The notes below the pieces were generated by a model. It saw only the letters and a program-made list of their open reading frames with translations. It was not told the origin of the DNA and did not search any database. A stretch of DNA of 64,000 nucleotides, taken from Chryseobacterium sp. MYb264 (GTDB lineage Bacteria > Bacteroidota > Bacteroidia > Flavobacteriales > Weeksellaceae). The stretch spans positions 1,798,001-1,862,000 of the forward strand of contig NZ_CP142422.1 of the NCBI RefSeq assembly GCF_035974275.1. Reading direction: 5' to 3'. The translations under genes and the position numbers were made by a program. Positions 12,181 through 52,594 of the stretch are shown piece by piece (positions within the stretch are counted from its first letter, which is position 1; every line of letters starts with the position of its first letter).

Positions 12181-13269
12181 TTAAATAGGACTGTTTATTT
12201 TTTTGCTAAATGAATAATTAAACTTCAATACAGTGAAGATAATATACAGGTATACCACATACTTAATCATTTGATAATGGTATAATGAAATGATGGCAAA
12301 AGCAAAAACCAGAATCATCAAAATCAGTTTGGATATATTTTCGATAAATGGGCGGTATTCTGTTTTGTTGCCCCATGCGGTTGGCTTAAAAAGTTCATTG
12401 ATTTTAGGTGAAAAACCATTCAATAATAAAATAGAATATGACATATATTCATTGCTGATTCCGCCCAGAATAAAGGCAAAAGCGATACATCCGATCATAC
12501 TTCCGTAGAAGATTTTCCCTTTCATATTTATCGGACTGGAAGGCATATCCGTCGCCATAAAAATCGCTCCGAGCAGCAATCCTGAAACTGAAAATTTGAA
12601 GTCCCCTTCATAATTAATAATCCATGATAACAGAATAAAAACAAAGAAAACCGATGAAGGAATATGCCATGAAATCCTTTTGCGCAACAGCAGATACAAG
12701 CCGCCAAGTGCGATGCAAACCGCCGAATATTCTCCAATGGCACCCGAAGTTTTATAGAGTAGACTTTCCAAGTAAGAAGAATCGCTATCTAAACCTAAAG
12801 AGGAAAAAAAAGTTGAGGAATTGATATTAATAAAATTCTTCGTATTCCAAATCGATGAAGAAGTCATAACTGAAGCAAAAAATACCGTCATCAGTTCCCG
12901 ACCCACCAAGGCAGGATTAAATTTATTCTTCCCCGTTCCGCCCCAGACGATTTTCCCAAAAATGATCGCCATAACTGCTCCAAAAGCCACAACATACAGC
13001 GGTGTAACGGGAGAAATGGTAAAAGCCAGCAGCAAACCTGTAATCACTGCACTCAGATCAAAAGAAAGTTGGATTCTCTTTAATACAACAGCCGAAAATA
13101 CAATATCTGTAACTAAGCAAACCGCCACCGAAACAGCAGTCACCGCTAAAGCTTTCATTCCAAAAGCAAACCATGACATCACGACCATCGGCAACAAAGC
13201 GATAATCACATCGAGCATTACGAAAAAAGTACTGCCAAATTTAGGTTTTATATAAGGATTCAAGTTCAT
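12181..13269 (-). CDS. rnfD: RnfD/NqrB-family electron-transport membrane subunit
   Basis: A 362-residue polytopic membrane protein with about ten segments. Family motifs are D-L-S-A-V-I-T-G-L-L-L-A-F near 72, G-K-N-K-F-N-P-A-L-V-G-R near 115, S-G-A-I-G-E-Y-S-A near 171 and G-A-I-F-M-A-T-D-M-P-S-S-P near 235. RnfD normally carries a covalent FMN on a threonine of an S-G-A-T type motif shortly before the G-x-I-G-E motif. Here that stretch reads L-D-S-D-S-S-Y-L-E-S and has no such threonine. It lies three bases after rnfC. RnfA, RnfB, RnfE and RnfG are absent from the operon, so this is not a standard Rnf complex. Called RnfD rather than NqrB because of the adjacent RnfC. Confidence 0.88.
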   Translation of the reverse strand: MNLNPYIKPKFGSTFFVMLDVIIALLPMVVMSWFAFGMKALAVTAVSVAVCLVTDIVFSAVVLKRIQLSFDLSAVITGLLLAFTISPVTPLYVVAFGAVMAIIFGKIVWGGTGKNKFNPALVGRELMTVFFASVMTSSSIWNTKNFININSSTFFSSLGLDSDSSYLESLLYKTSGAIGEYSAVCIALGGLYLLLRKRISWHIPSSVFFVFILLSWIINYEGDFKFSVSGLLLGAIFMATDMPSSPINMKGKIFYGSMIGCIAFAFILGGISNEYMSYSILLLNGFSPKINELFKPTAWGNKTEYRPFIENISKLILMILVFAFAIISLYHYQMIKYVVYLYIIFTVLKFNYSFSKKINSPI

Positions 13270-13272
13270 TTT

Positions 13273-14526
13273 TTAATTATTATGTAAAAGCTTTTTCCCC
13301 TTGAAAATTGCATCCATCAACGGAAGATCACTCGGGCATACATACGCGCAGGCACCGCATTCTATGCAATCCTGAACATTCAGTTCTTTCAGTTTCAACA
13401 CTTGGTTTTCCGAGTTTGAGCGAAGAAATTCCAAAGGCAACAGACGTTGCGGACAGACATCTACGCAATATCCACAGCTAATACAGTTATGCGACTTCGT
13501 TTTTTTATTTTTAAGCAAAAGAATTCCTCCAGAACCTTTATTGATTGGCGTTAAGAGAGATTTCACCGCCTTCCCCATCATCGCACCGCCAAGCACTACC
13601 GTTTCATTATTATTGACGGAACTTTGGGTTTCCTTTAAAATATGCTCAATCGGAGTTCCTATTTTGATGAGGTAATTTCCAAGTTTTGTCTTGTTGTTTC
13701 CTGATAACGTGATGATCCTTTCCGTAAAAGGAATATTTTCATAAAAGGCTTTATAAATTGACCAGATTGTTCCCACATTATTAACTAAAATACCATGTTG
13801 AGATGGAATTTCACCCTTCTTAATTTCTTTTCCTGTGATGGATTTTATTAACTGCTGCTCGCTTCCCTGAGGATAATTATTTTTAACCAGTTTTATACTT
13901 AATGGTAAATTATATTCTTTAGAAATTTTAAGCAAAATAGTCGATAGCTCCTTATTCTGTTTTTCAATCGCAACAACGATTTTTTTAGCTTTAATAAAGT
14001 ACTGAACAACTTGGAGTCCTTTCATCAACTCCTGCGTTTGCTCTTTCATCAAAACATAGTCTGCACTCAGATATGGTTCGCATTCTACACCGTTAATGAT
14101 AAATGTCTCGATTTCAGAAAATGTATTATTGTATTTTACATGCGTCGGGAATCTCGCGCCGCCGCTTCCTTCAACCCCGAAATCACTGAGCTTTTGAATA
14201 AATTCCTGAGTCGTTAATTCAGTATAATCATTTGATGAGAAAGGGAGTTCATCATTTTGAAAATCATTTTTTAAAACGATGAAATTTTGATCATCAATTT
14301 TGATATATTCAGAAATAATCCCTGAAACCGGAGCGTGAATACTGCTTGAAAAAAAATCATCAGATTTTGCCAATAACTGAATTTTTTTCACCTGCGCTCC
14401 AATTTCAACCACAGGCTTCATTTCCGAACGGTAACTTTTCAGTGGAATATAGAAATACTCAGGATCTGAAATCGTTCGGATCTGTATTTTTTTCGTTTTA
14501 TTTTTTAATGAAGAGATTAGAAGCAT
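13273..14526 (-). CDS. rnfC: RnfC-family NADH-binding iron-sulfur subunit
   Basis: A 417-residue protein of near-standard length for the RnfC core. It has an N-terminal barrel-sandwich (I-H-A-P-V-S-G-I-I near 64), a nucleotide/FMN-binding domain with E-G-S-G-G-A-R-F-P-T-H-V-K near 117 and N-G-V-E-C-E-P-Y, a SLBB-like region, and two 4Fe-4S motifs near the end: C-I-S-C-G-Y-C-V-D-V-C-P and C-I-E-C-G-A-C-A-Y-V-C-P. In Rnf complexes this subunit faces the cytoplasm and oxidises NADH. The start ATG overlaps the end of apbE by ten bases. With only RnfD as membrane partner it may feed electrons across the inner membrane. Confidence 0.92.
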   Translation of the reverse strand: MLLISSLKNKTKKIQIRTISDPEYFYIPLKSYRSEMKPVVEIGAQVKKIQLLAKSDDFFSSSIHAPVSGIISEYIKIDDQNFIVLKNDFQNDELPFSSNDYTELTTQEFIQKLSDFGVEGSGGARFPTHVKYNNTFSEIETFIINGVECEPYLSADYVLMKEQTQELMKGLQVVQYFIKAKKIVVAIEKQNKELSTILLKISKEYNLPLSIKLVKNNYPQGSEQQLIKSITGKEIKKGEIPSQHGILVNNVGTIWSIYKAFYENIPFTERIITLSGNNKTKLGNYLIKIGTPIEHILKETQSSVNNNETVVLGGAMMGKAVKSLLTPINKGSGGILLLKNKKTKSHNCISCGYCVDVCPQRLLPLEFLRSNSENQVLKLKELNVQDCIECGACAYVCPSDLPLMDAIFKGKKLLHNN

Positions 14527-41874: not shown

Positions 41875-41893
41875 ATTAAATATAAAAAAAATA

Positions 41894-41917
41894 GAAGCTA
41901 CTCTACTGAGCAGCTTC
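41894..41917 (-). terminator. Terminator of the sigma/plug/barrel/macroglobulin operon
   Basis: Ten-base stem GAAGCTACTC / GAGCAGCTTC with one mismatch and a TACT loop. On the minus strand it is followed by a T-rich run. It lies 34 bases past the stop of the macroglobulin gene. Confidence 0.85.
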
Positions 41918-41950
41918 TTGACAAACATTCATATTATATTCACGTAATAA

Positions 41951-44900
41951 TTACGGTTCAACTTTAGCCTTAATCCCTTCATTCCAATATTTAGATTCCG
42001 GCATATAATAGAGGTAAATAGTACTTGCTTTTCCTGTATATTCTCCGGCAAATTCGGTTTTTAGATCCAAATTAATCACTTTTGTTTCATTCGCATTAAA
42101 ATGTTCCCAATACAACACCAGATAATTATCAAAAATCTCATAATAAGAGACCTGCTTTTTATCGATCAAATCTTTCAATAAAGCGTTTTGCAACGTCAAT
42201 CCTGCCGGAATTCCTATTTTTGCGGTGACCATTGGCAATGGTCCGTTGATTTTATTTTTTACGGTTACCGTTAATCTGTTCGTTTCTCCAACTTTTGAGG
42301 TTAACGATTTCAGCTTTGTTTCCATGGTCACAGGAATGTCTGTACTTTTCGGAGCCTGTAGCGTATAAAATTCATAATCCAGTTTATAAGGAAGTCCTTT
42401 TGTACTCGGATAATTAATATCGATCCTATTTTCTCCCGATTTAAATGCCGAAGCGATATTAATTCGCGGCGAAACATCTGCTTTATTTACTTTGATGATC
42501 GGTTTTTCATTTCCATACAGTTTTTCATTTTTAGCGAAGAAATCAGACAAAACTTCCAATGCAAGACTTGTAGCCTGGGTAGAACCGAAACCGTAATATC
42601 CGTTAAAATCGATCAATTCATCAGCAACTTTTGGAATTTGTAAAGGGCTTATTTTTTCATCTTTCTGCAGCGCCATCATATATAAAGAAAGGGTTTCTGC
42701 ATTGGCCGACCTTCCGCCCGAACCGGTAAAAGTTACTTTTGTATTGATATTTTTACCGGCATCCTGCTTGTTTAAAATTTCCATTAAATTGTTATACTCC
42801 TGCACTTTTCCAAGATTTGAAGAAGCATTTGCCATCAACGCCAACTGATAAGAATCTTTTGTTGCCAAAGCTCTTTTCAACATCAATTGGTAAGAATTTT
42901 CAATCTCATTTTTCACACCAATTTTCGATAAAGCATATAAAACATACATATTTCTCGACCATGAATAATCGGAATACGGCTGATTCATTTCATAATTTCT
43001 TCTCACTTCAAAAAGTCCGTTTCTGTCTTTTTTAGATAAAATAAAGGTTTTTAAATTTTGAATTAAAGATTCATCAATACTGATCAGTTTCTTCAAATCA
43101 CTAAACTCCAGCAAAGCAAAAGCAGACACCGCCACACTAGATTCTGTAGAACTGAAATATCCGAATCCATTATCCTTATTTTTATAGCTTAACATTCTTT
43201 GAAAGCCCTTTTTAAGATTTTTGAGGACTAAACTTTCTGTTTCAGCATCTATTTTTTTGACCGATTTAAGATAATTCAGTATAAAAATATTGGGATAAAC
43301 GGTGGAAGAAAGCTGCTCAAAACATCCGTGAGGTTCTTTTTTCAATCGTTCCAAATCCTCAAACATCTGCAATGCCTGGTTTTCAAAAACATAATATGAG
43401 GCATTCAGACTGCCATTAATCAATTCAGGAATATCAATTTTTATGTTCTCATTTTTATTATTAATGATCGAATAATGATGCGGAAAACCTTTCTCTTCCA
43501 CTTTAAAAGGCAAGATCATCGTTTCCCTGAAATCCCCCGAACGAACCGTAAACTGTATATTGGAATTCACGATTTCATTCGTCTGCATCTTAACAAATAA
43601 TCTTCCGGATTCTAATGGTTTTAAGGTAATCAGACTGTCCGATTTCATCAAATTCACCCGATTCGGAACCACCACATTCATTATCATTGTTTTGGTTTCA
43701 TTCGAATTATTTTTAATCACCACCGGAATCATCATCTCATCTGTTCTCGTCAGATATTGTGGGATTTTAGCATCAATAGAAATTAAACTTTGAGCCGCAT
43801 AAGTGGTTTCATCTCTTCCCAGAAGTCCGTTCGCAGAAATTCCTTCCGTCATAATTCTGAAGGTCGTATTGGCATCAGAATTATAAAACTCTACTTTTGC
43901 CTTTCCATCTTTGTCAGTTTCAATCACAGGATTCCAATAAATTGCCTCTCTGTAATCGTATCGGTAAGACGTATTGGTGGTTTTGTAGACCGGATAGGAA
44001 AACTGTCTCGTGTAATTATACGTAACCAAACTGTCGCTTCGCACGGCTTCCACTGCAAAATAAGACTTCGGGCTAATATCCAACTTCACTCCTCTTCCAC
44101 CGCTTCCGATAGAATTCACCAATACTACGCCATTCGCAGCACGGCTTCCGTAAAGGGCAGTTGCCGCCGCATCTTTTAAAACCGTAATACTCCCAATATC
44201 ATTAGGATTGATCGTGGTATTGAGATTTTCCACAGGCATACCATCCACAATATACAAGGGTTGCTTATTCGAAATAGAAGCCATCCCTCTTACTCTTATA
44301 TTGACATATCCACCAGGCTGACCTGTGCTGTTAATTTCAATGCCAGCTACTTTACCATTTAAAGCAGATAAAACATTTGGATTTTGAAGTTCACTAGATA
44401 ATGAAACAGCAGTATACGAAGTGGTCATTTTACTTTTTACTACTTTATTTAAATATCCCAACACTACAACTTCCTCCACATTTTTCTCTTTAGCAATTGT
44501 ATCTTTTCTATTTCCAATAGGTTTATTAAACTGTTGCTTTGGTAATTCTTTTACCGATTCTTTCGGTTTTCCTTTAATTTCAGCTTCTTTAATGATTTCT
44601 TCAACATCAACATGACTTATTTTCTTTTTATCTAAAGGATTAATATCTAGTTTATAGGATAAAATTCTCACTTTCACTTCATGTTTAGGCAACGGCGATT
44701 TTGCAATCACTTTATACGACTTATCACGTTGAAGATCTGAAAAGTAAAACAATCCGTCTTTCGCTGTATTTTGCTTTAAAATTTTACTTTCTCTATAATT
44801 TTCTTCTAACAAAAAAACTTCCGATTCTACAGGATTTTTATGTTCATCCTCTACAATTCCATAAATCGAATTTTTCTTTTCCGGAAGGTATTTGTATTGA

Positions 44901-46483
44901 TCAGATTGAATCACTTCGGGAATCAGTTCAAAATATCGGTAACCGTTTGTCAACATCACCAAATCCAGACTTTTGGATGCCTTTTCCTCTTTTTTATCAA
45001 AATAAAACTGCGGTTTTTCGATCTTCCCTTTAAGTTCAGAATCCATCAGCAACCATGAAATAATATGATTTTGTTTGTCGTCTGCGTAAGTCCAAAGTTT
45101 ATCATCTACTACGCTCAATCCAAGATTTGCAGAAACAGCTTTTTGATTTTCATCTAACGTTTCAATATCCAAAACAACTTTTTCTCTTGGAAGATAATTT
45201 TGTTTTGAAGGTTTAATTTTAATGCTCAGCTGCTTATTTTCATTCGCAAAAATAATACGTTCCGCCAACGGAATTTCATTCTCAATAACGGTGAACCTGC
45301 AAATTCCTACAGGAAGTTGATCTTCAGGAATTTCAAAGGAATTCAGTCCTTTTTTTAAGATCAAGGATTGACTGTAAATTTCTTTTTCTCTAAAGTTTCC
45401 TTTGACCAAAACCGTCTTCCCATCCGTAGAAAATAATTTAAAATAAAACGTCTTATTTTCTTTAGTAACATTCAGCACAACGCCTTCATTTTTTGCAACA
45501 GAAAATGGATAAATTGTTTTTATATTTTCAGGCTTAACTACTTTTGCATAATACGTTTCATTTTTTCTAGCGGTAAATAGAAAAGATCCCATTCCGAAAT
45601 GATAAGCAGAAACTTCTTTTATCTTTTGGTGATTTTGGTTAAAAATTTCCAGTGTCGCATCCACAGGTTTTTCAAATTCATCTAACACTTTAAAAGCAAT
45701 ATTCTGTTCAATTCCGTTGATCAAACTTCCTCCTTCAGGCATCAATTTCACATCCAGATTATTAAGAACAATCGGAATATTTCGCGAAATAGATTCTGTA
45801 AATCCATCAAAATTGACTTTTATATTTAGTAAGGCATCAGAAGATTTCAGGATCTTTGGAAGATTAAATTTCAACTGATATTTTCCTTCCTTATCGGTTA
45901 TTAATTTTCCTTCAGACACCTTTTCTCCATCATGCATTACCGTGTAATCTGCTTCGTAAAAAGGAATGGGTAAATTGCTCAGACTCTTCATTGAAAAATC
46001 TGCCAGCACTTCATCTCCTGCACCATATCCTTTCTTTGGAAAATCCAGTTTCATTAAAATTCTTGGAGACACAATCTTCTGCAAGGTAATTTCCTTTTCA
46101 AAAACATTTTTCCCTTGCTCATTCAGCATCCAGTTGGTATAGGCACGAACTTTATAGATTCCGCCTTTCATTTCATGATCAAAATAAACGTATCCTTCGG
46201 CATGACCGTTTTTAATTTCACATTTAAACTTTCGGGAAACCGTTCCGCTTGGCTCAATTAATTCAAAATTAACCACTTTACTATCCTGAGTCGGAAGATT
46301 ATTTTCACCTTTAACAATGTAAATTTTAAAGTACATTTCTTCTCCCGGTTTAAAAAAAACATGATTGGTCTGCACATATACTTTCTCTTTTTCAAAGTCC
46401 TGAAATGGTTTTTGAGCATTCATTAGAACATTTGAAAAAAGAAAATTCAGCAATAAAATATAGGTTAGAAATCTGAAATTCAT
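41951..46483 (-). CDS. Alpha-2-macroglobulin-family protein with an inserted SusC-type plug domain
   Basis: A 1510-residue exported protein with a type I signal peptide (cut near L-M-N-A-Q, residue 23), not a lipoprotein. Order: MG2-type macroglobulin domains (about 25-520), a carboxypeptidase-D-like beta-sandwich (about 535-620), a TonB-box-like E-E-V-V-V-L-G-Y near 668, and a SusC-type plug (about 690-795: L-N-G-K-V-A-G-I, V-R-G-M-A-S, P-L-Y-I-V-D-G, V-L-K-D-A-A-A-T-A-L-Y-G-S-R). Next come an A2M domain (about 825-940) and a thioester domain with C1054 in G-C-F-E-Q, so the C-x-E-Q thioester motif is intact. A receptor-binding-like end follows. Macroglobulins trap proteases through the thioester. 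It is the last gene of an operon with a SusC-like barrel and an ECF sigma factor, four bases after the barrel gene. Confidence 0.88.
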   Translation of the reverse strand: MNFRFLTYILLLNFLFSNVLMNAQKPFQDFEKEKVYVQTNHVFFKPGEEMYFKIYIVKGENNLPTQDSKVVNFELIEPSGTVSRKFKCEIKNGHAEGYVYFDHEMKGGIYKVRAYTNWMLNEQGKNVFEKEITLQKIVSPRILMKLDFPKKGYGAGDEVLADFSMKSLSNLPIPFYEADYTVMHDGEKVSEGKLITDKEGKYQLKFNLPKILKSSDALLNIKVNFDGFTESISRNIPIVLNNLDVKLMPEGGSLINGIEQNIAFKVLDEFEKPVDATLEIFNQNHQKIKEVSAYHFGMGSFLFTARKNETYYAKVVKPENIKTIYPFSVAKNEGVVLNVTKENKTFYFKLFSTDGKTVLVKGNFREKEIYSQSLILKKGLNSFEIPEDQLPVGICRFTVIENEIPLAERIIFANENKQLSIKIKPSKQNYLPREKVVLDIETLDENQKAVSANLGLSVVDDKLWTYADDKQNHIISWLLMDSELKGKIEKPQFYFDKKEEKASKSLDLVMLTNGYRYFELIPEVIQSDQYKYLPEKKNSIYGIVEDEHKNPVESEVFLLEENYRESKILKQNTAKDGLFYFSDLQRDKSYKVIAKSPLPKHEVKVRILSYKLDINPLDKKKISHVDVEEIIKEAEIKGKPKESVKELPKQQFNKPIGNRKDTIAKEKNVEEVVVLGYLNKVVKSKMTTSYTAVSLSSELQNPNVLSALNGKVAGIEINSTGQPGGYVNIRVRGMASISNKQPLYIVDGMPVENLNTTINPNDIGSITVLKDAAATALYGSRAANGVVLVNSIGSGGRGVKLDISPKSYFAVEAVRSDSLVTYNYTRQFSYPVYKTTNTSYRYDYREAIYWNPVIETDKDGKAKVEFYNSDANTTFRIMTEGISANGLLGRDETTYAAQSLISIDAKIPQYLTRTDEMMIPVVIKNNSNETKTMIMNVVVPNRVNLMKSDSLITLKPLESGRLFVKMQTNEIVNSNIQFTVRSGDFRETMILPFKVEEKGFPHHYSIINNKNENIKIDIPELINGSLNASYYVFENQALQMFEDLERLKKEPHGCFEQLSSTVYPNIFILNYLKSVKKIDAETESLVLKNLKKGFQRMLSYKNKDNGFGYFSSTESSVAVSAFALLEFSDLKKLISIDESLIQNLKTFILSKKDRNGLFEVRRNYEMNQPYSDYSWSRNMYVLYALSKIGVKNEIENSYQLMLKRALATKDSYQLALMANASSNLGKVQEYNNLMEILNKQDAGKNINTKVTFTGSGGRSANAETLSLYMMALQKDEKISPLQIPKVADELIDFNGYYGFGSTQATSLALEVLSDFFAKNEKLYGNEKPIIKVNKADVSPRINIASAFKSGENRIDINYPSTKGLPYKLDYEFYTLQAPKSTDIPVTMETKLKSLTSKVGETNRLTVTVKNKINGPLPMVTAKIGIPAGLTLQNALLKDLIDKKQVSYYEIFDNYLVLYWEHFNANETKVINLDLKTEFAGEYTGKASTIYLYYMPESKYWNEGIKAKVEP

Positions 46484-46487
46484 AGCT

Positions 46488-49256
46488 TTAAAATTTAAAT
46501 GAAACCATACATCCGAAAGTCTTGAAAGAAGGTAAATTGAAGAAGTCCATTCCTTTTCCGTTATCGGTATCGTAAAAATTCTGATTAGGATCTGTTCCTT
46601 TGTTTGCCTGCCAAAGCAGAATATTATTCACATAAAAAGTTAACGTAATCGTACGAAAGGAATTATTTATCGGAAAATCTGCAGAAAGCGAAATATTATT
46701 AATACGTACATAATCTGCTTTTTGTACGTACTCTTCTGCAACACCTAAATAGCCATATCTCGACCATCGGTTTTCCGTAACATCCTGATTTTGGTTGTAA
46801 AAATCAACCGGAATTTGATTTATATTTCCATTGGAATGGACACCCTGAAAAATATAGTTTTTAACATTTCTGTCTTCTCCGGAATTGTAAGAACGTCCGT
46901 AATAATCGAGAACAGCCTGAGTTCCGTTCCAGATTTGCCCACCTTTTTTCCATTCCCAGTTGATATCTAAAGTCAACCGTTTATAGTTAAAAGTATGATT
47001 GAATTTCATCACAAAATCCGGTGTCGGATCAGCAATTATTTTCATTCCATCTGCTTTTTTAGGAAAACCGAATTCATCAATAATCAATTGATTATCTGCA
47101 TTTCTCTCAAAATAACTTCCCATCACCGCTCCCAAAACCTGACCCTTTGAAAGGGTTTTATAAATATCCTTAAAACCTGAAACTGCCCAATCATCATATC
47201 CCGCGGCCACATGATCTACAATATCTTTATACTTGAAAAACGAAATTTTGTTGGCAACATAAAAATTCTGACCTAAGCGAAGACGTTCATAATTAAAATT
47301 GAATTCATAACCGCTATAGGTATGATCTGCCCTATTTTTAAGTTTCAACTGATTATTTTCAAAAAAAGGAAATACATCATTTTTGATTTTTCGATTAAAA
47401 TATTCCCCTTCAAGACTGACTCCATATCCCAGATCCAGTTTTCCGCCAATTTTCCATTCATGAACATCTGTATTCGAAAGATTATTAAAGCTTTCCACCT
47501 CATCAATCGGAAAATATAGGTAAGAATTTTCCGCGTTCAGCAAAGTAGTTGCATAAGAAGCATACGATCTTGTTATTTCAGGTTCAGCGCTAAGTTGAGT
47601 ATAGGCTCCCAACAGCTTAAAGTTGATTCTTCTCCAATTAAAGATTTCATTGAATTTCAAATAAGCATTTGCCTTTGGAAGCCAGTATGCATTTTTATTT
47701 GAAGTGTTTGAAATATAGAATGAATTTCCAAAATTAATTCCCATTTCAAAATAATTATCACTGATTTCCATATTATAATTAAATCCATAATCCTGAGAAG
47801 TTCTTTGATAATTGTATTTTCTACCAGTTAAACTGTTGTAAACATCCGATTTTCTATCATTTAAAATAAAATTTGCACTGAAAATATTTCTAAATCCATA
47901 ATTTCCCAACGTATAATTTCCTGTAATATTAGAATTATATAAACTGTTATTTTGCGTTCTTTCGTTCAAAATCCCGTTAGTAAATCCATAAGTGGAAGGT
48001 TGATACTGATCGAAATTCGAGAAATGATCGTTTTCGTAAGACTGACTGACATTCAATTTAAAATCACCCCATTTTTTCGCTATATCTAAACTGAATTGTC
48101 GCCTGTTATCCCGATAATTGTATTTATTTTCTTGTTCAAAAAGGAAAAATGGATTATCCGCTGACTTGCTGTAACTTCTTTGCAAGCCATTTGAAAGAAA
48201 AGTTTGCTGAGAATTTGAAAACGAAATGGGAGTCAGTAGAGCATTTTGGTAAATTCTATTGAAAAGCCCTATTCTATTCGCATTTGTCGCTTTATTTTCT
48301 TCATAATTAAAAACAGCATTCACTGTGTAGCCCTTAAAAGCAGAATTAAATTTAGCTTTTAATGTATTCGAAATATTGAACTGATCGATAAAATACATTT
48401 GATCTTTTTGCTGACCTAATTCCAATGAAAGCCTCAGTTTTTCCTGATATCCCCGCTTAATAAAAGCATTTATATTTAACTGATTACGGTAGCCCACCGT
48501 TGTTTTAAAAATATCATTATGATAGGCTTTGGCGGGTGAAACTCCTTTATCAGAACTTACCAATCTTCCATTTTGGTCGTATTCATAAGGCTGCCCATCA
48601 AATGTTAAAGTGGAAATATCCGGGCCGAAGCTGAAAACCTCGTTCGTTTCAGGTCCTCTCCAAACCAAACTTCCGTTATCAGATCTTCCTTGTACGTATC
48701 TGTTTTGTGTTTTGGGAATAGAATTTCGGTTCTTAATATCGAAAGAAGTTGTAAAACTTCCGTTAAAAACTAAGTATTGCTCCTGAAGGGATTTCAGCTT
48801 ATACAAACTGTCATTTTTTCGTTTTAATTTCCTAATCGATGAAAAATATTTATCTGAATTTTTACTTAAACCCAACGTCGAATTTTCAATGCTGAATCGA
48901 TCCTCAGAGCTTCCTGAAATAAGGCTATCATACGTTTTACTGTAAATATGAGTTACATTTTCTTTCTCATCCTGGCCTTCGAGAATAGATTTTAATTCTT
49001 TTAAACGGTAAGACATCACCACTTCCGTATTCTTCCCGTTATTCCAAACCAAAGTATCGTAAGGCTTTGCAGCAAGAATGGCAAATCCCTTCTCATCAGT
49101 CATTTCATAAATCCCGCTGTTTTTATTAAACACCTTTAAAAAATTCTGCGGTTTACCTTTATGATTAAAAAAAATTCCTGAATAGTAGAGATTAGAATCC
49201 TGGGCGAAAGCTGCCACAGCTGTTGTCATCAGACAAAAGATATATATTTTTTTCAT
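46488..49256 (-). CDS. SusC/RagA-like outer-membrane beta-barrel protein without a recognisable plug
   Basis: A 922-residue protein with a signal peptide (cut after A-A-F-A-Q, residue 19) and a short carboxypeptidase-D-like domain (about 23-90: F-F-N-H-K-G-K-P-Q-N-F-L, T-D-E-K-G-F-A-I). A charged linker follows, then about 750 residues of beta-barrel strands ending in the SusC-type terminus (Y-V-R-I-N-N-I-S-L-S near 866, N-N-I-L-L-W, terminal aromatic F-K-F). I find no plug signature between about 90 and 260, where SusC proteins have one. Both neighbouring genes encode a plug. A TonB-dependent function is therefore uncertain, and a plug supplied by a partner is possible. Confidence 0.8.
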   Translation of the reverse strand: MKKIYIFCLMTTAVAAFAQDSNLYYSGIFFNHKGKPQNFLKVFNKNSGIYEMTDEKGFAILAAKPYDTLVWNNGKNTEVVMSYRLKELKSILEGQDEKENVTHIYSKTYDSLISGSSEDRFSIENSTLGLSKNSDKYFSSIRKLKRKNDSLYKLKSLQEQYLVFNGSFTTSFDIKNRNSIPKTQNRYVQGRSDNGSLVWRGPETNEVFSFGPDISTLTFDGQPYEYDQNGRLVSSDKGVSPAKAYHNDIFKTTVGYRNQLNINAFIKRGYQEKLRLSLELGQQKDQMYFIDQFNISNTLKAKFNSAFKGYTVNAVFNYEENKATNANRIGLFNRIYQNALLTPISFSNSQQTFLSNGLQRSYSKSADNPFFLFEQENKYNYRDNRRQFSLDIAKKWGDFKLNVSQSYENDHFSNFDQYQPSTYGFTNGILNERTQNNSLYNSNITGNYTLGNYGFRNIFSANFILNDRKSDVYNSLTGRKYNYQRTSQDYGFNYNMEISDNYFEMGINFGNSFYISNTSNKNAYWLPKANAYLKFNEIFNWRRINFKLLGAYTQLSAEPEITRSYASYATTLLNAENSYLYFPIDEVESFNNLSNTDVHEWKIGGKLDLGYGVSLEGEYFNRKIKNDVFPFFENNQLKLKNRADHTYSGYEFNFNYERLRLGQNFYVANKISFFKYKDIVDHVAAGYDDWAVSGFKDIYKTLSKGQVLGAVMGSYFERNADNQLIIDEFGFPKKADGMKIIADPTPDFVMKFNHTFNYKRLTLDINWEWKKGGQIWNGTQAVLDYYGRSYNSGEDRNVKNYIFQGVHSNGNINQIPVDFYNQNQDVTENRWSRYGYLGVAEEYVQKADYVRINNISLSADFPINNSFRTITLTFYVNNILLWQANKGTDPNQNFYDTDNGKGMDFFNLPSFKTFGCMVSFKF

Positions 49257-49323
49257 GGTTAATGATTTACTATTAAACAGAAATTATTATAATTTAATTT
49301 TCGATTTTGAAGGGAATGAATAC

Positions 49324-50442
49324 CTACTTTTTCTTTGCTCCAGCTTTTATCAAAATTTCATTTATTTTTTTTCTTTCCGCTCTTGAAATATCTTTTGTTT
49401 CAACAACAATGGCACCGCCTGAAGCCTTTGCTCCAAAAAACTCAATAGCTTTTTCATCCTTTAACACGGTAATGGCTACGATACGGTTGGGATTCAGTGT
49501 TCTGAATTCGTCCATATCCGTAAGTTTTCCATCAATAACATACAACGGATTTTCTTTCGCATTGGCAGAACCTCGAATGATGACATCTACTTTTCCGGCC
49601 CTTGGATTTGCTGACGGACTCATGCTCAATCCGGCAACTCTTCCCTGTAGCATATCTGCCAAAGATTGATCACCAACTTTTTCAGCCAAAATATTATTAG
49701 ATGCTATTTTCTTTTTATTTCGTAAATACGTGGCATTATAGCCTAAAACCAAGGGTTCTTTCATTTCATTCTTAATCTCAAACTGACTGTTAACAGAGGC
49801 CAACGCTTCTGCGGTATCTGCTTCAATCTTCATTTTGGATCTGGTAAAATTGTCAGAAGACACTACGTTGGCCGATACATTAGAAGCTATTTTCTCTCTT
49901 TTTGTACCCAATCCCATAACCACTACTTCTTCGATATTTTTTCTTTTCACACTGTCCATTATTTTTGGCAAGGCAGGTACTAAAATTTCTTTGGTAACAT
50001 ATTCTGCTGAAGGATATTCAATTCCGTTGGAAGAAAGGATAAATGGCTTTTCATCAGCCTTTGGTTGATGATAGGCTAATATTTCCTGTTTTCCTGACCG
50101 CTTCGGAGCTGCTGCCTCATTTTGAATATTAACCTTTACTGTACTGTCGATTTTCTCAATGGGTGTATTTTTAGGCCCGGTGGTATTTTTTGCAACGGTA
50201 TAAGGTGTATTTTCGGTTGGGCCTTCACTTTTGTTTACGAAGTAAAAAGTTCCAAAACCAATTAATAAACTTGCAGCAATGCCATAAGGAATCCAGGTTG
50301 AGATGGTTTTCTTTTTTTCTTCTTTTTTATCTAATCTTTCTTCAATTTGATTCCAGACTTTATCAAACCCAGGAAAAGTCGCAGGTTCGTCTACTGCTTT
50401 GGAAGCTTCGTTGAAAGTTTTGTCTATATTATTATTTTCCAT
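49324..50442 (-). CDS. Single-pass membrane protein with a C-terminal SusC-type plug domain (anti-sigma-like position)
   Basis: A 372-residue protein with a cytosolic N-terminus of about 48 residues (P-G-F-D-K-V-W-N-Q-I-E-E-R-L-D-K-K), one membrane segment (about 50-69), a linker, then a periplasmic region with E-E-V-V-V-M-G-L-G-T near 169 and a second similar phrase P-L-V-L-G-Y-N-A-T near 231. A plug fold follows (about 262-350: L-Q-G-R-V-A-G-L, I-I-R-G-S-A-N, P-L-Y-V-I-D-G, V-L-K-D-E-K-A-I-E-F-F-G). The gene begins 11 bases after the ECF sigma gene, the usual place of an anti-sigma factor, and the short N-terminus could bind sigma. No FecR or zinc anti-sigma domain is visible. The role is inferred. 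Confidence 0.82.
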   Translation of the reverse strand: MENNNIDKTFNEASKAVDEPATFPGFDKVWNQIEERLDKKEEKKKTISTWIPYGIAASLLIGFGTFYFVNKSEGPTENTPYTVAKNTTGPKNTPIEKIDSTVKVNIQNEAAAPKRSGKQEILAYHQPKADEKPFILSSNGIEYPSAEYVTKEILVPALPKIMDSVKRKNIEEVVVMGLGTKREKIASNVSANVVSSDNFTRSKMKIEADTAEALASVNSQFEIKNEMKEPLVLGYNATYLRNKKKIASNNILAEKVGDQSLADMLQGRVAGLSMSPSANPRAGKVDVIIRGSANAKENPLYVIDGKLTDMDEFRTLNPNRIVAITVLKDEKAIEFFGAKASGGAIVVETKDISRAERKKINEILIKAGAKKK

Positions 50443-50453
50443 TGTGTTTACGT

Positions 50454-50972
50454 TTAAATATTTTGATTCACCAACAGTTCCTGAAGTCTTTTTCTGGCAA
50501 AATTGAGTTGAGATTTCGAAGTTCCTTCGCTGATGGAAAGCATGGTTGCAATTTCTTTATGAGGATAACCTTCAATAGCAAAAAGATTAAAAATAGCCCG
50601 ACAACCTTCAGGAAGGAAGTTTAAAAGACTTAAAATATCTTTTTCGAAAGAAAGACTTTCAGTTCCTGAATCATGAGATTCTGCATAGTTTTCATCCAGA
50701 GAAATATGGAGAGCTTTTTGGGAACGAAGTTTCTGTAAACATTCATTTACGGCAATTTTTCTTGCCCAGGATTCGAAGATATCGGGATTCTGAAGCTGAT
50801 TCAGCTTCGTGAAGATTTTATAGAAGGTATCTGCCAATACTTCTTCAATATCTTCATCGTTTTTCAGATAGCGCTTACAAACTGTATACAGCTTGCCCGC
50901 CATCTTCTCGTACACTCTCCGCTGTGCATTGCGGTCGTTACGCTGACATTCTATTAGTAATTCTTTTTCCAT
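50454..50972 (-). CDS. ECF RNA polymerase sigma factor
   Basis: A 172-residue sigma-70 family factor with region 2 (D-I-E-E-V-L-A-D-T-F-Y-K-I-F near 41, W-A-R-K-I-A-V-N-E-C near 69) and region 4 (L-P-E-G-C-R-A-I-F-N-L near 118, G-Y-P-H-K-E-I-A-T-M-L-S-I-S-E-G-T-S-K-S-Q near 134). It heads the operon with the plug-bearing membrane protein, the barrel and the macroglobulin. In Bacteroidota such sigma factors are held by membrane anti-sigmas, so this factor probably drives the operon's own transcription. Confidence 0.92.
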   Translation of the reverse strand: MEKELLIECQRNDRNAQRRVYEKMAGKLYTVCKRYLKNDEDIEEVLADTFYKIFTKLNQLQNPDIFESWARKIAVNECLQKLRSQKALHISLDENYAESHDSGTESLSFEKDILSLLNFLPEGCRAIFNLFAIEGYPHKEIATMLSISEGTSKSQLNFARKRLQELLVNQNI

Positions 50973-51391
50973 AGTCAGGCTTTATACTTATAGAGATGCA
51001 TGAAATTTCAGAAAGGTTGGAAACATGGTTAACTTTTTTTAAAAATAGTTGAAAATGATGAATAAGGCAAATGGGAAAATGGAAAAGAAGCTGGATGATG
51101 GAGGTTAGAGTCAGAAAGTGAAAGAGATGACCACGCCCCTAGCCCCGATTGCAGCGGATACCCCGGAACTGGGTTTGAGAGTTTGAGAGAAGGAGGGCTT
51201 AAGCGTTGGAGCGCTTTGGAGCGCTTTGGGGTGAGGAGTATGAGCGGAAAGCGGGAATAGCTTCTAATAAAAATCTTACTTTCATAAAAAATTTTCCCTT
51301 TTCATAAAAAACTTAATATTAAATTTAACTTTTCCCTTTGTAACGAATCTTTAATAGGAACGACTATTCATATAAATAATCTTTTACAGTA
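50973..51391. other. Divergent promoter region with structured repeat
   Basis: 419 bases between the sigma factor and the protease gene. It holds copy 2 of the Flavo-1-like repeat (51137-51264) and, in minus orientation, an AACCTTTC stretch at 51011-51018 that may belong to the sigma-factor promoter. No open reading frame is supported. Confidence 0.5.
51137..51264 (+). repeat. Flavo-1-like structured intergenic repeat, copy 2 (expanded middle)
   Basis: Shares the 5' box CCCTAGCCCCGATTGCA and the 3' box GCGGAAAGCGGGAA with copy 1 at 28136, ending in AGCTTC. The middle is replaced by a longer stretch that can form a different helix (ACCCC / GGGGT) and contains the direct repeat GGAGCGCTTT twice. 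Same polarity, 128 bases. Confidence 0.65.
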
Positions 51392-52594
51392 ATGAAAAAT
51401 AGAAAAATTGCCTCATTACTTTTTGTTTTGTCTGCAGGAAGTATGATGTTTGCACAGGATGACTTAATCAACAAGTTAAAAAACAACCAATCTCAAAATG
51501 CTAACTTTCAATTTACTACGGTAAAAGATGTGGGAGCCACTTCAGTGAAAAATCAGGGTTCTTCGGGAACATGCTGGAGCTATTCCGGGAATTCTTTCCT
51601 AGAATCTGAAATGCAGAGAATGGGTAAAAAGCCTGTAGATCTGGCGGAAATCTTTACTGCAAGGAACTCTTATCATGATAAAGCAAAATTATATGTTTTA
51701 AATAACGGAGCCATCAGCTGGGGCGACGGAGGGGAATTGCATGATGTTGTGAATATGTACAAAAAATATGGTGCGGTTCCTCAGGATGTTTATACAGGAC
51801 TTAAATCGGGGCAGACTTTGAATAATTTCAAAGAAATGCAGGGGAAATTAAAGCCTGTTTTAGATAGTTTGGTTCAGGCTTCCTCTAAAGGAAAACTTTC
51901 GGATAACTGGATGTCTTCTGTAGATGCGATCTTAGATGAGTATTTAGGAAAAGTTCCTACTAATTTTACGTATGAAGGGAAAAATTACACTCCAAAAACC
52001 TTTGCTAAGGAAGTTGTAGGCATTAATCCTGAAGATTACGTAGAAATTTCTTCTTATAAAGATTATCCTTATTACCAAAAATTTGTAGTTCCGATTCCTG
52101 ATAACTGGAGTCATGATTCTGACTGGAATGTTCCGATGAAAGATTTAACAGCGATTGTTGACAACGCTGTCAACAAAGGGTATTCTGTAGGCTGGGCAAC
52201 AGATGTTTCTGAGCCTTATTTCTCTTACAAAAATGGGGTGGCGTATGTTCCGGATATGGATTTAGATCAAATTACGGCGGACAATAAAGCTACTTTATTC
52301 ACGGAGCCTAAAAAAGACAAAACAATCACCGAAGATATGCGTCAGAAAGCATTGAACAATCTTTCTACAACGGATGATCACGGAATGCACATTGTAGGAT
52401 TGGCAAAAGACCAAACCGGAAAAGAATATTATATGGTTAAAAACTCTTGGGGTGTAACCAATGATTTTGAAGGATATCTGTATGTAACAAGACCTTATGT
52501 TGAATACAAATCAACGGCTATTCTTGTTCACAAAAATGCAATTCCAAAGAATATTCTAAAACAATTGAAACCAACTAAAAATATTGGTTTATAA
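51392..52594 (+). CDS. Secreted C1-family cysteine peptidase (bleomycin hydrolase/PepC-like)
   Basis: A 400-residue papain-fold peptidase with a signal peptide (cut after M-M-F-A-Q, residue 22). The catalytic triad is visible: Q55 and C61 in Q-G-S-S-G-T-C-W-S, His in D-D-H-G-M-H-I-V-G near 330, and Asn in V-K-N-S-W-G near 350. The order and spacing are those of the bleomycin hydrolase/aminopeptidase C group, which is usually cytosolic; here it is exported. It begins 128 bases after the structured repeat, divergent from the sigma operon. It lies near a macroglobulin gene but not in the same operon. Confidence 0.92.
   Translation: MKNRKIASLLFVLSAGSMMFAQDDLINKLKNNQSQNANFQFTTVKDVGATSVKNQGSSGTCWSYSGNSFLESEMQRMGKKPVDLAEIFTARNSYHDKAKLYVLNNGAISWGDGGELHDVVNMYKKYGAVPQDVYTGLKSGQTLNNFKEMQGKLKPVLDSLVQASSKGKLSDNWMSSVDAILDEYLGKVPTNFTYEGKNYTPKTFAKEVVGINPEDYVEISSYKDYPYYQKFVVPIPDNWSHDSDWNVPMKDLTAIVDNAVNKGYSVGWATDVSEPYFSYKNGVAYVPDMDLDQITADNKATLFTEPKKDKTITEDMRQKALNNLSTTDDHGMHIVGLAKDQTGKEYYMVKNSWGVTNDFEGYLYVTRPYVEYKSTAILVHKNAIPKNILKQLKPTKNIGL

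Follow-up and report, generated by a model that had tools for sequence, protein, structure and literature searches.

A plug-less SusC-type barrel kept together with a plug-bearing alpha-2-macroglobulin in a sigma factor operon of Chryseobacterium

Introduction

Must the plug that closes an outer-membrane barrel lie in the same polypeptide chain as the barrel itself? In TonB-dependent transporters the two are regarded as one chain, and a locus of Chryseobacterium sp. MYb264 raises the question of whether this always holds. The locus lies in a stretch of 64,000 nucleotides (‘the window’; contig NZ_CP142422.1, positions 1,798,001 to 1,862,000, or G000:C1:1798001-1862000) that is part of a 5.23-Mb single-contig genome; the nearest named proteins come from Chryseobacterium. 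It comprises four genes in a row on the minus strand, separated by 11, 67 and 4 bases, which encode an extracytoplasmic function (ECF) sigma factor of 172 residues (50454..50972), a putative anti-sigma factor of 372 residues (49324..50442), a SusC-type outer-membrane barrel protein of 922 residues (46488..49256) and a thioester alpha-2-macroglobulin (A2M) of 1510 residues (41951..46483). All window coordinates below refer to the minus strand unless stated otherwise.

A sequence-only reading of this DNA had found a SusC-type plug in the second and in the fourth protein and none in the barrel, and had suggested that both plugs might dock there. The coordinates and spacings of the four genes were reproduced from the open reading frames (ORFs), and the identity of the first gene was borne out by Pfam matches to Sigma70_r2 and r4_2. 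From the analysis that follows we lean towards the view that the A2M corks the barrel in trans, mooring a protease trap at an outer-membrane pore, and that the sigma factor governs a group of envelope proteins with plugs.

No plug in the barrel chain

The 922-residue protein matched profile TIGR04056 at profile positions 214–981 only (E 3.2e-13), a match that starts after the plug, and a Pfam search at E<=1 returned nothing. Its AlphaFold model (predicted template-modelling score 0.68) contains 22 long strands and no plug. The best structural matches of this model are SusC chains: BT2263-type chains were top-ranked by Foldseek, with plug-less BT1763 chains leading in VIA-align only. The alignment with SusC chains begins at about residue 160, and this together with the model strands places the barrel region at residues 160–922 (46491..48779). 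Ahead of it, strands in the model form an N-terminal beta-domain resembling the N-terminal extension (NTE) of such proteins (residues 24–94; 48975..49187), while residues 97–154 are of low confidence and without a plug fold; residues 2–72 also gave a weak match to NF053692 BamP (E 2.8e-5). A plug hidden within the first 160 residues was considered and set aside, as neither the TIGR04056 profile nor the model shows one. A Ton-box-like pattern is likewise absent from the first 200 residues of all 59 barrels compared. This makes the protein a barrel of SusC type that lacks its own plug, as the earlier reading had proposed.

The fold and the NTE-like domain are common to this protein and to the SusC/RagA TonB-dependent transporters (BT1763, BT2263 and RagA). 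Those transporters, however, hold plug and Ton box in the barrel chain, whereas here both sit in other proteins. A SusD partner gene, expected beside SusC, was sought with SusD_RagB (PF07980), other SusD families not being searched; this family had no match in the window and 18 elsewhere in the genome.

The alpha-2-macroglobulin carries a Ton box and a plug at its bait-region position

Pfam domains TED_complement (1.5e-22), Plug and A2M (PF00207, 2e-9) were matched above cut-off in the 1510-residue protein, and MG2 (1e-5), A2M_BRD and bMG10 below it, in agreement with its earlier description as a macroglobulin with an inserted plug. The plug (residues 688–786; 44126..44422; E 6.3e-16 for the protein) lies between the bait-region-type domain and the MG7-like PF00207 domain (residues 848–934; 43682..43942). 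The bait-region position, in type I bacterial A2Ms a disordered stretch that proteases cut, is taken up by a linker of low confidence in the model (about residues 614–696), a Ton box, VEEVVVLGY, located by alignment (residues 669–677; 44453..44479), and the plug; 57 of 58 A2Ms have a Ton-box-like pattern in the corresponding region. Strands in the model further delimit a carboxypeptidase-regulatory-like domain (residues about 540–610; 44654..44866), a segment in which 25 of 29 related A2Ms match CarboxypepD_reg. The thioester motif C1054-F-E-Q1057 (43313..43324) reads CFEQ in all 58 A2Ms. By eye the N-terminus has a signal-like stretch, and no type IX secretion system (T9SS) domain was matched in searches with Pfam or TIGR-type profiles.

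Bait-region-type, MG2, MG7-like and TED domains and the CxEQ motif are also found in the type I bacterial A2Ms (E. coli ECAM and Salmonella SaA2M). ECAM is anchored in the inner membrane (PMC4498604) and type I A2Ms are encoded together with PBP1c (PMC5764988). What sets the operon A2M apart is that its bait position holds a Ton box and plug and that its partner is an outer-membrane barrel.

Several other proteins show variations on this design (coordinates within the respective loci). In other Bacteroidia, thioester A2Ms have a TonB C-terminal domain at the bait-region position (L192:4715-9682 (+), L198:6284-10966 (-) and L218:761-5764 (-)), the last of them with a plug besides, and a further A2M (L191) has a Ton-box-like motif there and no plug. 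The MYb264 genome itself encodes a 797-residue A2M-related protein (L171:8214-10607 (+)) that lacks the TED part and, judged by eye, has a plug-like stretch. A 2032-residue protein from another genus (L170:5582-11680 (+)), considered as a possible plug–barrel fusion, proved by eye to be a larger A2M-type protein with a plug before the MG7-like region and no CxEQ.

Barrel and macroglobulin are kept and lost together

Scanning a species-genome collection for the barrel yielded 57 loci, each with a barrel-matching ORF. The A2M gene is the next labelled gene in 56 of them (including fragmented copies in L102 and L142), most commonly at a distance of 3 bases. A conserved neighbourhood, on which the sequence-only reading had hinged, was found: the order sigma factor, plug-bearing second gene, barrel and A2M recurs in 55 of the 57 loci, two of the 55 being the fragmented ones and some having an extra gene between the second gene and the barrel. 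The exceptions are L146, which lacks the sigma pair, and L149, which has a 97-residue barrel remnant and no A2M. The fragmented L142 was excluded from protein alignments.

The same association is seen at the level of genomes. Among 148 genomes of the genus, searched at E<=1e-100, the barrel occurs in 76 and the A2M in 77 (a few copies being broken), and the two are present or absent together in 147; in the single exception, G778, the A2M match starts at base 2 of a contig. On a tree of 60 loci (8 of them without the barrel) built from their sigma factor, MarR and C1-peptidase proteins, the barrel changes state five times, and the A2M is absent from all 8 barrel-less loci. We therefore conclude firmly that barrel and A2M behave as one unit.

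The pair also reaches further afield. It is found in three loci from another family of the order (L173–L175, with barrels 26–29% identical) and in L187. It stands without an adjacent plug-bearing anti-sigma gene in L146 (Chitinophaga tropicalis), L174, L175 and L187. In L173 an ECF sigma gene, a 144-residue ORF and a separate 156-residue plug protein precede the barrel; in L174 it is preceded by a VWA protein; and L175 has a divergent ECF sigma gene together with a 210-residue multi-pass protein (13097-14233 (+)), unlike the pair in the window. The arrangements in L173 and L175 indicate that the association with ECF sigma genes is not confined to the genus and takes more than one form.

Four further matches to the barrel profile (L176, L193, L194 and L195) were rejected as having plug and barrel in one chain. 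A different kind of fusion was found in L186 (8408-13279 (-)), where a gene adjoining FecI- and FecR-type genes encodes a 1623-residue chain that combines carboxypeptidase-regulatory, VIT and VWA domains with a Ton box, a plug and a barrel of SusC type. A VIT-VWA part of inhibitor type can thus directly precede a plug and barrel. By BLAST the L186 barrel scores 243 bits against the barrel in the window, compared with 134–207 for the plug-bearing SusC chains of the four rejected loci and 233 for the plug-less barrel of L187.

The macroglobulin plug varies with the barrel

Both neighbouring plugs had been proposed as partners of the barrel, and the divergence of 51 of the 59 barrel proteins was used to compare them (omitted were the distant L144–L146 and L173–L175, as well as L119 and one with an incomplete set). 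With the sigma factor, the A2M N-terminus and TED as controls, barrel divergence followed that of the A2M plug with a partial correlation of 0.77, a value reached in 0 of 2000 permutations, and that of the anti-sigma plug with one of 0.18. In a sliding window along the A2M, covariation with the barrel peaks on the plug. When flanking genes served as controls instead (40 of the 51 proteins, both flanking genes being needed; log distances), the neighbouring domain reached 0.64, the A2M N-terminus 0.57 and the anti-sigma plug 0.17.

A second comparison came from 20 loci chosen for their anti-sigma matches. Fifteen of these have the sigma gene but lack both barrel and A2M, and 14 of them keep a plug match in the anti-sigma-type protein; one barrel-less locus (L092) has no match to the anti-sigma N-terminus. 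Of the two proposed partnerships, that of the A2M plug gained from co-inheritance and covariation. That of the anti-sigma plug lost ground on both its persistence without the barrel and its low correlations. As the barrel's dedicated plug it is a weakened candidate also because L144 and L145 have, by eye, only its second half, although barrel and A2M are present. The anti-sigma plug has a role independent of this barrel.

The membrane protein is probably an anti-sigma factor

The 372-residue protein consists of a short N-terminus, one hydrophobic stretch read as a likely single membrane helix (residues about 50–69; 50236..50295), a linker, the Ton-box-like motif IEEVVVM (residues 170–176; 49915..49935) and a SusC-type plug (residues 247–351; 49390..49704). 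The plug corresponds to TIGR04056 positions 97–205 (E 2.1e-22 for the protein), so that the single-pass membrane protein with a plug described earlier was found as stated. Pfam Plug was not matched in this protein at E<=1; among 53 anti-sigma segments, 49 have a Pfam Plug match. The motif may be compared with the Ton box of BT1763, given as DEVVVTG in PMC7782687. From its place after the sigma gene, and from this layout, the protein is probably an anti-sigma factor.

In the 56 loci with barrel and A2M, BLAST distinguished three forms of this protein, ending in the plug (14 loci), extended by a YfbK-type VWA part (20) or carrying VWA and a T9SS sorting domain (19); L102 and L142 have it in fragments, and L146 lacks it. 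Separate TSP3-VWA-YfbK and MuiA-type genes occupy the same place in some loci. One relative (L077:4891-7206 (+)) has an N-terminal hydrophobic helix by eye, a plug, VWA and a C-terminal T9SS sorting domain, and could possibly form a chain from the cytosol to the cell surface. Reading anti-sigma factor and barrel as a single chain was rejected, since among the short in-frame cases L144 and L145 have half plugs, L105 and L111 several stops in the spacer and L114 a divergent plug.

The nearest described signalling design that we found is that of the Bacteroides Dma anti-sigma factors, in which a single chain runs from an anti-sigma domain through a membrane helix and a tether to a barrel (PMC13088901). 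The 372-residue protein shares with them the N-terminus, single membrane helix, linker, outer-membrane-type module and adjacent ECF sigma gene. The Dma chain ends in the barrel, however, whereas this chain ends in a plug and the barrel is a separate gene, so that the operon spreads anti-sigma factor, barrel and plug over several chains. The FecI-FecR-FecA system is similar in that one operon holds its ECF sigma factor, its membrane regulator and outer-membrane components of TonB type; it differs in that the anti-sigma protein here has no FecR match and the four proteins no STN match (Pfam, E<=1). In Pseudomonas cell-surface signalling the signalling domain of the receptor shields the anti-sigma factor from proteolysis (PMC11637429), and the anti-sigma plug could possibly act along similar lines.

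One promoter motif precedes several proteins with plug segments

The regions upstream of the sigma gene in 55 loci, once aligned, share the motif TTTCCAACC-N15-GCATCT, which from its sequence resembles an ECF-type promoter and has an exact match in the window (50994..51023). The pattern TTTCCAACCN{13,17}GCATC matched four places in the MYb264 genome and none in a reversed control: before the operon, 43 bp before the gene for a 980-residue protein, 20 bp before that for a 234-residue protein, and inside an opposite-strand ORF. The 980-residue protein (L224:3826-6768 (+)) has VIT, TPR and DUF2135 domains and a Ton box by eye. The occurrence of DUF2135 together with an A2M is reminiscent of the yfa genes of E. 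coli. The 234-residue protein (L223:5688-6392 (-)) is cysteine-rich and combines a Ton box with a plug that Pfam matches below cut-off (0.0011).

Among 21 further chosen genomes the pattern matched in 19, with 35 matches in all against one in the reversed control. We examined 34 places, namely the 30 of these 35 that had loci and the four of the MYb264 genome; 17 lie before a sigma gene, 6 before a protein of the 234-residue type and 3 before one of the 980-residue type. Since the motif precedes all three, proteins with plug segments recur under one promoter, and the ECF sigma factor probably controls, through it, its own operon and other envelope proteins of this kind.

In L245, L253 and L254, lipoprotein-like genes stand behind a near-identical promoter-like sequence, beside what by eye is an XRE-regulator-type gene.

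Proposed function and alternative explanations

For the A2M as a cork acting in trans, we envisage that its plug would enter the empty barrel from the periplasm, so that the A2M would be moored under the pore and would close it. A protease or other protein passing through or attacking the pore would then cut or displace the plug region, which replaces the bait, and the thioester domain would trap the protease at the pore. TonB may pull on the Ton box of the A2M, and the plug that the anti-sigma factor carries in the periplasm probably senses what this machinery is doing, for instance whether barrels or Ton-box partners are free. The further link drawn by the sequence-only reading, from the outer-membrane state or a trapped protease to release of the sigma factor, may hold as well. 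In Flavobacterium johnsoniae, a porV plug double mutant has its outer membrane permeabilised through the T9SS channel (PMC12611786). A more elaborate version, which we put forward tentatively and think may well be wrong, has the one plug-less barrel closed in trans by exchangeable corks, which would be borne by the A2M trap, by a VIT protein and by proteins of one ECF regulon that are anchored in the membrane, with competition among corks reporting trap use to the sigma factor such that spent traps are replaced.

A number of results weigh against corking by the A2M or against the wider regulon. Model confidence for the A2M plug is low (means over 10 residues of 29–59). When flanking genes alone serve as controls, its covariation with the barrel equals that of the thioester domain (0.59 each, n=40), so that the plug-specific part of the covariation depends on the controls; the 0.18 of the anti-sigma plug also lies above all permutations. 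The anti-sigma plug persists at most barrel-less loci, one of which, L083, shows no plug match in its anti-sigma-type protein. Since A2M-type proteins with a plug occur without an adjacent barrel (L188 and L196), plugs of this type have other uses. The L186 barrel is by profile (E 1.4e-121) no closer to the barrel in the window than some ordinary SusC chains (G184, 2.0e-123). As for the promoter, the plug of the 980-residue protein is only partial (30 bits by BLAST, no Pfam match), and four of the 34 places lie inside ORFs and another four before lipoprotein-like genes with no plug match.

The plugs might instead stay outside the barrel, as TonB- or protein-binding modules through which the TonB system would be coupled to A2M, VIT and anti-sigma proteins, with the barrel open or otherwise gated. 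The Bacteroidia A2Ms with a TonB C-terminal domain or a plug-free Ton-box-like motif at the same position speak for such coupling, as do the plugs of A2M-type proteins that lack a nearby barrel. One would not then expect, however, the barrel chain alone to have lost its plug and a plug-bearing A2M to be strictly co-inherited with it, nor barrel and A2M plug to covary, and an open pore of 22 strands should be harmful; we regard this alternative as unlikely, though it is the one that we take most seriously. Somewhat less probable still is that the anti-sigma plug is the main plug of the barrel, the two forming a split cell-surface signalling receptor and the A2M being an effector whose plug is incidental. 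The anti-sigma gene does lie upstream of the barrel in 55 of 57 loci, Pfam finds a plug in nearly all anti-sigma segments, L173 has its separate plug protein before the barrel, and the single-chain Dma proteins (PMC13088901) offer a precedent for joining the components.

Against a split receptor stand the weak covariation of that plug with the barrel, the half plugs of L144 and L145, the four loci (L146, L174, L175 and L187) in which barrel and A2M do without an adjacent plug-bearing anti-sigma gene, and the plugs kept at barrel-less loci, which were picked for their anti-sigma matches. We find it hardly credible, and the least so of the explanations considered, that the barrel serves as a dedicated channel, for export or anchoring, by which the A2M reaches the cell surface, with the plug as a docking handle. 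Genes of two-partner systems are adjacent, as barrel and A2M genes are here, mostly 3 bases apart, and the anti-sigma relatives with T9SS sorting domain and VWA point to traffic to the surface. The A2M itself nevertheless has a signal-like N-terminus by eye and no match to a T9SS domain, and SusC barrels are not known to act as exporters.

None of the families considered fits the whole: the barrel lacks the plug and Ton box of SusC, the A2M lacks a plain bait region, and the anti-sigma factor lacks both the Dma barrel and the FecR domain. A literature search, in one open collection only, returned no described system that joins an alpha-2-macroglobulin with a plug domain in Bacteroidetes or with TonB-dependent parts in Flavobacterium. 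Docking in trans and exchange of corks, if true, would make a new kind of device, and if the A2M plug and the barrel fit together it would be a membrane pore guarded by a molecular trap. The plug would then be a separable, perhaps exchangeable, part of the design of TonB-dependent transporters, and bacterial macroglobulins would gain a defined station at the periplasmic mouth of an outer-membrane pore, where their function could be tested by a simple permeability assay. The findings bear on why the bait position of some Bacteroidia A2Ms is occupied by a plug, a Ton box or a TonB C-terminal domain, and offer an ECF regulon in which plug-segment proteins recur.

Features flanking the operon

At its 3' end the operon is followed by an intrinsic terminator-like hairpin of 11 pairs with a T run (41893..41918), placed by consensus match where a terminator had been noted before. 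Divergent from the operon, on the plus strand, lies a gene that by eye encodes a secreted C1-type peptidase (51392-52594). Such a peptidase is not labelled in Cloacibacterium (L145), and adjoins the operon in most Chryseobacterium loci.
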